From Adineta ricciae (lineage: Eukaryota; Rotifera; Eurotatoria; Adinetida; Adinetidae): a DNA stretch of 64,000 nucleotides. Shown here piece after piece: positions 440 through 3,569 of the stretch. The stretch is taken from positions 372,001 to 436,000 of the forward strand of contig CAJNOJ010000006.1 of the NCBI GenBank assembly GCA_905250025.1. Direction: 5' to 3'. The notes below the pieces were generated by a model. The model made no database searches, was not told where the DNA came from, and saw only the letters and a program-made list of their open reading frames with translations. A program made the translations under genes and the position numbers. How positions within the stretch are numbered: the first letter of the stretch is position 1; each line of letters begins with the position of its first letter.

Positions 440-3400
440 TTAGACTTCTTCTCCGCATTCAAATCGAACAAAATCATTGACGGTCAAGTGATTTTCATTA
501 AGAAAGATTTCAACGGTTTTCTTTTTATCATCGGTATGCATCCATTTTTGGTAGAGTAGGCGATTTTCATCGATTCCTAGTTGTTTTTGTTCATTTAAAC
601 CGATTGTTTTCGAACGTGCAGCAACAATGTGTTGAGCGATTAAGCGTCCAAATTGTTTCGTCTAGGGAGAGAGAAAAAAAAGAGATAAATCCTTGAACTT
701 TTTCTCTGGTTATGGTTCGTCAATAATATTGATTAAATTTCATCTTTTTTTCTATTAGATTTGAGATTAGATTGTCTTACATGCACGTAGGATATAGGAA
801 AGGGTGTGTTTAGATAAGGTTATGAATATTCGATATAAACAAAACGAAAAGATTAATCCGTGAAAAGAGAACGCGGAAGAAAGTAGAGCTATATTTTCTC
901 TCCTTTCAATAAATAGGATATTCAACTCAAGTTGTAATCAATCCAAAGGTAATATGACAGAAACACTTAGCAATACGTATACAAACGTTGGCAACGATAT
1001 TCAATCAGTGCGTGGCAAATATGTTGATAATACGGCACATTTATCAACTGAGCCCAAGTCATTGACTGAACTGATCGAATTGATCTACCAGGCATTCGCA
1101 ACTAATGAGGTCAATATCGATTATGTTCATACAATAATGCGCAACTACAAAGGTAACATGAGAGAATGGGCGCCGTATTTGAAATTTCAACCAAACAAGT
1201 ATACAAGAAATTTGGTTGATGCTGGAAATGGTAAATTCAATTTGATGATCTTGTGCTGGGCTGAAAGTCAGGGTTCATCGATACACAACCATACGAACTC
1301 GCATTGTTTTATGAAATGTATTCAAGGTTCAATGATTGAAACGAAATATGCTTGGCCAAAGGAAGGAAGCGAGAATGAAGAAGACGCGATGCGTGTCATT
1401 AGTCGGTCGGAATTAAAAGAGGGAATGGTTGCTTATATTCACGACTCCATCGGACTCCATCGTGTCGAAAATCCAAGTCATACAGATACAGCTGTTTCAT
1501 TACATCTGTATGTTCCACCGTATGATCATTGCAATGTATTTGATGAGCGTACTGGTCGAACAAATGAAGCGAATGTTACATTCTATTCTATCGGTGGTCA
1601 ATTAACAGCAAATGAATAAACTGAGATCTTCTTCCAGTTCCTCTCTGTTCTTTTTAAATATATAATTCTTTAATAAACGAAGCTTCAATCATATTTCAAT
1701 TGAGATTTTTTTTTCACAGAAGTAATTTGCATCTATTCACACTTGTCCTATGCCAATATCTAATATACGAATATGTTAATCATTTACAGTATCCTATTTG
1801 ACATCGTTTCTTCGTCATCTATCTAATAAAATCGGCTTATCAAAACTTTCTATGTCGAATGAATGAATTCGAGAGAAAAGTTGTTCGAAATACGAAATAA
1901 GAACATTCTGCTAATAGGTGGTGAGTCAAATAACCTATAAAACTAGTTATTTTTAATAACAAATAAATATTGTCTCCTGTTCACCTTTACTTCGAACAAC
2001 ATCAGTCATCTTTGACCCTGTAGCACATGATGTATCAAGAAGCCTAGAATCAACTTACCATAATATCGAAAATATGCCCAAGAGCTAATTCACCATTGCT
2101 GAGTGATTGTGGTAATGGAATTTTATTTTGAACACTATAATATTTTCTTGTCCATTTCGATGTTTGCTCATCTCGAAAGTCAACATGGGCTATTTTTAAA
2201 CTAGGCCAAACATATATAATCTGTTTCAGCGACGGTATTCGTTGATAATTGATTGATTTTTCATGTAATACTAATCGTTCAGTTGTTGGTGTTATAATTT
2301 CAACGATAACTACTGGTTCACGTGTGATTGCTTGATCAACTTTAGGTGCTTGGGTGCTAAGACACAAGCCTGGATAGTAAATGTAGACAGGATCGGGTGT
2401 TTGAACGCGAATATCCATGGGAAGCACGTGAACATTTTTTAATTGTTGTTGTTCAATTTGTGCGCTGATATTCTTCAATAATAAATCATGTGCATTCTCC
2501 CGGGATGGTAGTGCGTAGACATATCCATTGAGATATTCATGCATTAGATTACTTTCATCTTCACTATCTAAGTAAGTACTTAACTCAATCGGTTTTTGAA
2601 TATTATCTTCACAGATTGTTCGCAGCGGATACGAACGAGTTAGTACACTTGAAGTTAATGATTGACCATTCTGAAGAAAACAGTTATGAGAGGTTGGTTT
2701 TGCAGTCCTCAATGAAACAAACGTATGCATACTTCAGATTGACTTGTCGTCGAATCTACTTGTGAGTATTTCACAAGTGCACCGTATTTGCCCATACGGC
2801 ATGAATCCGAACTTGTACTATTGACTTGTCCATGACAATAGCTAGCTAATAGTTGATTGTTTTCAGTATTGAATACAACACCACGTCGTAAGACGACATT
2901 TTCACCAACCGAACCAACACATAAAGCTGTCACATCAGCTAAGGTTTTCGAACGATCATCTAAACTTGGCAATGTCCCAAGAGTCTCTTTATCGAACACG
3001 ACCTAATATATATTCAAAACAGGCATATTAAGTACAAACGAAAGCAAAACCCCACGAACTTTGTCTTTCGCCTTTTCCGATTGATTAACCAGTAGGCTAT
3101 TTGCGACTTGAGAAACAAGTTGTTGAAATTTTTCATTCTTAGCGACGAAGTCTGTTTCACAGTTGACCTAACGGGAAATATGTGAAGTTTAAACTGACTT
3201 GTATTAGTCATTTCGAACGAACCTCAACCATTGCTGCTGAATTCTTATTCGTAATGATGCCAACTAGACCTTGTAATGCAGCACGGCTCTGCAATTTTGT
3301 CGCGCGACTCCAGCCTTCAGTTTGAGCACGTTGATGTAACCACGCTTCAGCCTGTCGCGAAAAACTAATTCAAAAAGAGTGATCGCAAAACAAACGGACA

Positions 3401-3569
3401 TTACTTGTTCTAAATTATCGTTGAATTGCTGAAGAGCCGCTCGGCAATGTGACAAAGAATAGCCAGTCTTCTTTCGTAGTGTGCTTAGTGGTGACGAAGT
3501 TGAAGCAACAGCTGATTTAGCTAGATAGCGAGATACACTTGTATGAATAAATCGTCGGCAGACAAGCAT
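440..3569 (-). CDS. TSFM: Mitochondrial elongation factor Ts with an in-frame Uma2-domain exon
   Basis: Exons 3569-3405, 3351-3223, 3167-3060, 3002-2733, 2670-2059 and 661-440 all join in phase 0. Without the fifth exon the product is 297 residues; with it, 501. EF-Ts recycles mitochondrial EF-Tu from GDP to GTP. The N-terminus is Arg/Ser-rich and lacks acids for its first 20 residues, as in a mitochondrial presequence. The UBA-like LRKKTGYSLSHCRAAL, the core VNCETDFVAKNEKF, GKYGALV and the C-terminal NDFVRFECGE are EF-Ts hallmarks. The start at 3569 is chosen because the presequence and UBA region follow directly. The fifth exon codes for an unrelated 204-residue Uma2-like domain between GKYGALV...SQSE and TKQFGRLIAQHIV, which are contiguous in ordinary EF-Ts. 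The last intron (2058-662) contains a cysteine dioxygenase gene on the other strand. EF-Ts identity is firm; whether the Uma2 exon is constitutive, alternative or a terminal exon cannot be told from DNA. Confidence 0.9.
954..1619 (+). CDS. CDO1: Cysteine dioxygenase type 1
   Basis: A single uninterrupted 221-residue frame encodes a cupin-fold cysteine dioxygenase, the non-heme iron enzyme that oxidises cysteine to cysteine sulfinate in the cytosol. The iron ligands are visible as His111 and His113 (SSIHNHTNSHC) and His169 (DSIGLHRVENPSHT). Cys118 and Tyr186 (LHLYVPP) occupy the positions that form the thioether crosslink in the mammalian enzyme. Arg85 (KYTRN) matches the substrate carboxylate-binding Arg. 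Length is close to the mammalian 200 residues, with about 25 extra at the N-terminus. The gene has no introns, unlike most of its neighbours, and lies wholly inside an intron of TSFM on the opposite strand. An AATAAA at 1671-1676 could serve as its polyadenylation signal. Retroposition is possible; a conserved intronless gene is the alternative. Confidence 0.95.
   Translation: MTETLSNTYTNVGNDIQSVRGKYVDNTAHLSTEPKSLTELIELIYQAFATNEVNIDYVHTIMRNYKGNMREWAPYLKFQPNKYTRNLVDAGNGKFNLMILCWAESQGSSIHNHTNSHCFMKCIQGSMIETKYAWPKEGSENEEDAMRVISRSELKEGMVAYIHDSIGLHRVENPSHTDTAVSLHLYVPPYDHCNVFDERTGRTNEANVTFYSIGGQLTANE
2059..2670 (-). other. Uma2/DUF820-like domain exon captured inside the EF-Ts gene
   Basis: This 612-nt open exon is flanked by a TTTTCTTCAG acceptor and a strong ATG|GTAAGT donor, both in phase 0. 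If the donor is not used, translation stops two codons later. The 204 encoded residues follow the plan of the Uma2 family (PD-(D/E)XK fold, abundant in cyanobacteria and other bacteria): an E..NG motif (MHEYLNGYVYAL), a conserved His in ENAHDLL, a YYP strand, then VVIVEIITPTTE with a downstream Lys and Tyr (HEKSINYQRIPSLKQ). The Asp normally following YYP is Gly (codon GGC; residue 325 of the fusion), so the PD motif is broken while the Glu (348) and Lys (362) remain. This suggests a whole bacterial-type domain, probably not nuclease-active. Bacterial origin is inferred from the known distribution of the family. Confidence 0.75.

Follow-up and report, generated by a model that had tools for sequence, protein, structure and literature searches.

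A bacterial-type Uma2 domain encoded within the mitochondrial EF-Ts gene of bdelloid rotifers

The gene encoding the mitochondrial translation factor EF-Ts of the bdelloid rotifer Adineta ricciae was analyzed in a stretch of 64,000 nucleotides (nt) of contig CAJNOJ010000006.1 (assembly GCA_905250025.1, positions 372,001 to 436,000), hereafter the window, whose own numbering is used throughout. Between the fourth and the last EF-Ts exon the gene carries an exon encoding a domain of the Uma2 family. An earlier note on this DNA had proposed an EF-Ts-Uma2 fusion, and such a fusion was found to be common to the gene models of six bdelloid species. Taken as a whole, the account that we consider likely is that a Uma2 gene was captured in the mitochondrial EF-Ts gene and is now a constitutive exon, providing a binding module that does not cut within a chain of 501 amino acids (aa). 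The foreign domain appears now inseparable from an ancient mitochondrial housekeeping protein that has one match in the genome.

Structure of the EF-Ts gene

The EF-Ts gene lies on the minus strand of the window and holds a second gene in its last intron:

3405..3569, minus strand: EF-Ts exon 1, with the start codon, an Arg-rich, acid-free N-terminus and the start of the EF-Ts N domain
3223..3351, minus strand: EF-Ts exon 2
3060..3167, minus strand: EF-Ts exon 3, carrying the VNCETDFVAKNEKF motif
2733..3002, minus strand: EF-Ts exon 4, core domain (..GKYGALVKYS..)
2671..2732, minus strand: intron between exon 4 and the Uma2 exon, 62 nt, phase 0
2059..2670, minus strand: Uma2 exon of 204 codons with both ends in phase 0; residues 32-190 form the Uma2 core, with YPG at residues 99-101, where bacteria have YPD
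662..2058, minus strand: last EF-Ts intron, 1397 nt, donor ATG/GTAAGT, acceptor CTCTCTCCCTAG
440..661, minus strand: last EF-Ts exon, whose 73 aa, followed by a stop, make up the C-terminal part of the core (..VNDFVRFECGEEV)
954..1619, plus strand: cysteine dioxygenase gene, antisense and nested within the last EF-Ts intron

The coordinates of the Uma2 exon and of its flanking EF-Ts exons, their splice sites and phase, and the 62-nt length of the upstream intron had been given in the earlier note and proved correct. The introns of the gene measure 53, 55, 57, 62 and 1397 nt and have GT-AG sites, and all exons are in phase 0. The acceptor of the Uma2 exon reads TTTTCTTCAG/A and, as judged by eye, the splice sites of this exon are comparable to the others of the gene. 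Its reading frame was open in none of 20000 shuffles of the 612 nt, and its GC content is 0.356 versus 0.36-0.48 for the EF-Ts exons. The encoded chain has 501 aa when the Uma2 exon is included and 297 aa, corresponding to a normal-looking EF-Ts, when it is left out. A standard polyadenylation signal, AATAAA, is present at 322, after the last exon, and a variant one, ATTAAA, at 1957 on the minus strand. The N-terminus contains seven Lys or Arg and no Asp or Glu within 35 residues, an Arg-rich and acid-free composition from which import of the fusion into mitochondria would be expected.

Identity of the two parts

The Uma2 exon matched the Pfam profile of Uma2 (PF05685) at E 4.4e-10, its 39.8 bits exceeding the curated cut-off of 27, and the same profile matched all 18 sequences examined (the window and 17 relatives) at E 0.001. 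The domain has the Uma2-type PD-(D/E)XK fold, so that profile and fold together bear out the assignment made in the earlier note. The Uma2 / DUF820 / COG4636 family belongs to the PD-(D/E)XK superfamily and has the solved members 1wdj, 3ot2, 6okh and 9y1l. Whereas Uma2 in that family is a free bacterial gene, the bdelloid domain is embedded in a eukaryotic protein.

The protein obtained by skipping the Uma2 exon aligned with bovine mitochondrial EF-Ts (1xb2 chain B) over residues 22-295 of its 297, with 183.5 bits (E 4.5e-53). When the EF-Ts exons were scanned singly, scores lay close to the cut-off (27): 29.6 bits for exon 4 and, slightly below the cut-off, 26.2 bits for the last exon against PF00889 (E 7e-06). 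The EF-Ts encoded in the window is identical at 402 of 402 compared residues to the A. ricciae database entry P0029, which assigns the DNA to A. ricciae or a nearly identical strain. P0029 matched EF-Ts_N (PF25025, 1.1e-19) and PF00889 (4.4e-21). Features shared with mitochondrial EF-Ts (TSFM, of which the bovine protein is an example) are the N domain, the core domain, the DFVRFECGE end and the Arg-rich N-terminus. Unlike it, the bdelloid core carries an insert of 204 residues, which is absent from the Brachionus EF-Ts entries P0055 and P0095. In the alignment with 1xb2 chain B the site of the insert, flanked by ..GKYGALVKYS.. and ..GRLIAQHIV.., falls in a connecting stretch that aligns only weakly.

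Distribution and conservation in bdelloids

Searches of the assembly (130.46 Mb in 1033 contigs) with EF-Ts exon 4, the last EF-Ts exon and the cysteine dioxygenase each returned a single match. A protein search with the Uma2 exon gave 28 matches, Rotaria magnacalcarata and A. steineri among them. Among the best 120 of the 4494 matches of the exon-skipped EF-Ts, six entries contained both EF-Ts and Uma2 domains, and a motif check of these 120 recovered the same six. They come from A. ricciae, A. vaga, A. steineri, Rotaria sp. Silwood1, R. socialis and Didymodactylos carnosus. A seventh entry, P0034, is a bdelloid-like EF-Ts whose model lacks Uma2 and apparently runs into the intron. Uma2 was present in none of the other 113, those of Brachionus plicatilis and B. 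calyciflorus included. Since six species have the fusion and the two sampled monogononts lack the insert, the insertion would be older than the sampled bdelloids; if this is true, one transfer is fixed to before their split.

Identity to A. ricciae in the EF-Ts and Uma2 parts drops together, from 87 and 85% in A. vaga to 72 and 58% in D. carnosus, Uma2 changing slightly faster in all five other named species. Across these, Uma2 is 58-85% identical and the linker 30-50%.

Active site of the Uma2 domain

Conservation was assessed in 34 bdelloid rows (the window, P0001-P0028, P0030-P0033 and P0035, some from the same species; P0034 was left out) and in the 37 bacterial rows nearest to the bdelloid profile, 29 from searches by phylum and eight others, which is the set to trust. 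An overlapping set of 53 bacterial rows is biased, because most of it was retrieved with peptide patterns, among them one that contains YYPD.

The aspartate of the YPD motif (the PD aspartate), which, as the superfamily name implies, is probably catalytic, is D in all 37 profile-nearest bacterial rows and in 51 of the 53 rows of the biased set, and is replaced in bdelloids by G (30/34) or S (4/34). By contrast, E124, K138 and Y142 are invariant in all 34 bdelloid and 37 bacterial rows, and E45 is present wherever a row has a letter there (19/34 bdelloid and 37/37 bacterial rows). E124 and the helix lysine K138 are presumably catalytic residues, and loss of the PD aspartate is assumed, from what is known of the superfamily, to stop cutting. 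The domain is therefore predicted, most likely, to no longer cut nucleic acid. Bdelloids also differ from the bacterial pattern at W155 and P156 (33/34 each) and at T127 (34/34; S in the bacterial family), and the near-invariance of these residues suggests a new constraint.

Origin of the domain and earlier records

The search for this exon in related rotifers and the Uma2 tree that the earlier note had called for found it in six bdelloid species and placed the bdelloid rows on one supported branch. The first tree kept 80 of 87 rows (dropping P0017, P0021, L039, L052, L053, L055 and L056), including 32 of the 34 bdelloid-type rows, which fell on the same side of one branch as the named bdelloids. 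The second tree left out these seven rows and, in addition, L010, L041, L047, L054, L057, L058, every bdelloid row no longer than 170 aa, and exact duplicates. In both trees a branch with full support set the bdelloid rows apart, with a Shimodaira-Hasegawa-like approximate likelihood ratio (SH-aLRT) of 100 for 32 rows and supports of 100/100 for 17 rows. Their stem is long: the two models used gave it 2.83 and 1.71 changes per column. These results are consistent with a single origin of bdelloid Uma2.

A transfer from bacteria to bdelloids is the direction that the known distribution of the family points to. In line with the description of the family as mainly bacterial, excerpts of published papers report Uma2 proteins as numerous in cyanobacteria and scattered elsewhere (PMC1274311, PMC2701414), and the family as a predicted nuclease that is likely a solo toxin of bacteria (PMC2701414); one fungal occurrence is mentioned (excerpt of PMC4102429). 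Bdelloid rotifers are known for horizontally acquired genes, as excerpts of two reports state (PMC11258130, PMC10665377). As with those genes, a bacteria-type family is found here in an animal group; this one, however, is not free-standing but forms part of a core organelle factor, and its enzyme activity has probably been lost.

The earlier note knew of no EF-Ts of this architecture. No description of the fusion was found among the open-licence PMC papers listed (in one search the best 10 of 8,784), judged by title and the opening of the abstract, and the words 'fusion' and 'endonuclease' are absent from the main text of a compendium of transfers into metazoans (PMC13342648). On the other hand, automatic annotation in public databases already assigns both domains to single entries, so that the fusion is not unseen, though undescribed within the reach of these searches. 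These database entries, the spread among bdelloids, the one-copy state, the replacement of a probable catalytic Asp and the nested cysteine dioxygenase go beyond the earlier note.

Proposed account

An ancestor of the sampled bdelloids would have taken up an entire Uma2 gene of bacterial type into its gene for mitochondrial EF-Ts, in the connecting stretch that runs from exon 4 to the last exon. Uma2 would now be an internal phase-0 exon, probably used constitutively. The product would most likely be one chain in which a targeting peptide is followed by the EF-Ts N domain, the larger part of the core, a variable linker, Uma2 and the C-terminal part of the core. Its EF-Ts part would remain the exchange factor for mitochondrial EF-Tu, with Uma2 as an insertion; this need not block EF-Ts, because the inserted domain is well formed, sits at a connecting stretch and has a free linker.

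Uma2 would have kept its fold and the active-site Glu and Lys and lost the PD aspartate, most likely together with cutting. Since that aspartate is gone and the fold is kept, a binding role appears likelier than a cutting one, the putative target being nucleic acid (tRNA, rRNA or mitochondrial DNA), a protein, or Uma2 itself through self-association. Within the fusion hypothesis, a binding or dimerizing arm is the prediction that we rank first, at nearly even weight. More tentatively, mitochondrial translation in living bdelloids may use an EF-Ts with a permanent, domesticated and non-cutting bacterial nuclease domain as a new arm for nucleic-acid binding or dimerization, perhaps coupling elongation to the state of mitochondrial RNA or DNA in desiccation and recovery. 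If the account is true, it shows the taming of a potentially harmful nuclease through loss of a likely catalytic residue, and the function of Uma2 can be tested in Adineta.

The junction with the last exon and alternative explanations

We infer from the DNA that the Uma2 exon is spliced to the last EF-Ts exon. Several observations weigh against this or against the wider account. The fusion is known here from DNA and protein models, and the function of its Uma2 part is a prediction; the midpoint-rooted Uma2 trees do not point to a donor group. No protein joining Uma2 to the last EF-Ts exon was found among the matches listed in the EF-Ts and junction-region searches. The latter search (20 candidates) had a single match, P0149, whose exon is identical to the last exon of the window at 64 of 78 positions and begins TKQFGRL after other residues that by eye look like intron; P0149 matched no Pfam family. 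In the six named fused models (P0029-P0033 and P0035) the chain stops within 2-19 residues of the Uma2 donor, and ATTAAA lies 93 nt past the stop reached by reading through it. Tails past the donor were compared in 33 sequences (P0001-P0035 without P0034 and P0021, the latter having no motif; P0029 and two A. steineri models included). In the 15 rows with long tails (105 pairs), mean pairwise identity at tail residues 3-17 was 0.28, whereas the final 15 residues of the exon gave 0.67 and shuffled tails 0.09; this likeness possibly reflects coding read-through, an element for splicing or an intron whose start is conserved. In one A. steineri model, P0017, the donor is followed by KR rather than V.

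The six named models lack the last EF-Ts exon. The tails of P0001, P0004, P0018, P0022, P0024, P0025, P0028 and others share a loose pattern (e.g. SFRFH..HLI), clearly more than shuffled sequences do.

The early ends, the ATTAAA and the tail identity would all fit Uma2 being an alternative last exon, with one mRNA ending after ..IFDIM-VS-stop, near 1957, to give a 430-aa EF-Ts-Uma2 without the C-terminal part, and a second one skipping Uma2 to give normal EF-Ts. However, the position of the stop varies, tails being 2 to 103 residues long with 12 of 33 ending within 10, and the residue after the exon is V in 32 of 33, followed by S (29), R (2) or G (1), which at the protein level is the expected reading of GTRAGT-like sites; a terminal exon would not need such residues. 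Gene finders may stop early at a gene nested antisense in an intron, and the cysteine dioxygenase gene (CDO_I, PF05995, E 1e-62), complete and in a single exon, is a likely reason for the truncated models. Because donor-like residues are kept, the last exon still encodes the EF-Ts C-terminus and P0149 holds a similar exon, we regard truncation as probably an effect of gene prediction and an alternative last exon as unlikely; automatic models of six species would then be cut short at this gene. A regulated cassette, proposed as an optional exon in the earlier note, would make two products, normal EF-Ts when the exon is skipped and EF-Ts-Uma2 when it is kept, and phase 0 at all junctions lets the frame survive skipping. 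So far it has found no support: the best 120 of 4494 matches of the exon-skipped query included no bdelloid protein of the skipped form, the Uma2 splice sites are as good by eye as the others, and in P0009 a single open reading frame (ORF) spans EF-Ts exon 4 and Uma2, with zero extra residues at the join. P0009 is probably genomic, because its ORF begins within exon 4 and ends in intron-like residues, and in that case its Uma2 unit is not simply skippable; were it instead a partly spliced transcript, it would support the fusion only. Regulated skipping is accordingly given a low probability.

Three further explanations concern the inserted domain itself. That it is a tolerated passenger without function of its own, kept as not cleanly removable, fits a linker free to vary and a Uma2 part whose conservation is a little below that of EF-Ts in each of the five other named species, but not the extent of Uma2 identity among these or the near-invariant residues unlike the bacterial pattern, such as W155 and P156, and we consider it improbable. 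Very improbable is an active nuclease aimed at mitochondrial DNA or RNA: the fold is kept and E45, E124 and K138 occur in all bdelloid rows that have a letter at these positions, but the PD aspartate is lost in 34/34 rows and such an activity would presumably be hazardous when tied to an obligatory translation factor. Contamination, a chimeric assembly or a pseudogene has a negligible probability; nothing was found in its favor, and fused models in the records of six species, a GC content close to that of the EF-Ts exons and an open, conserved frame argue against it.

Returning to the proposed constitutive exon, the 62-nt intron of the window (2732-2671) has no counterpart in the P0009 ORF, and P0009 groups inside the bdelloid rows of the tree. 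If P0009 is genomic, an intron would have been lost or gained at the fusion joint.

Neighboring genes

Downstream of EF-Ts, at about 232-1 on the minus strand, a gene starts by eye like the gene following in P0149, M(S/T)S..DFEEE..KKARE.YM, which suggests that gene order is conserved there. Upstream, at 6066-5320 on the minus strand, lies a gene for a WD40 beta-propeller protein, an ordinary animal gene neighbor that, we assume, resembles RBBP5.
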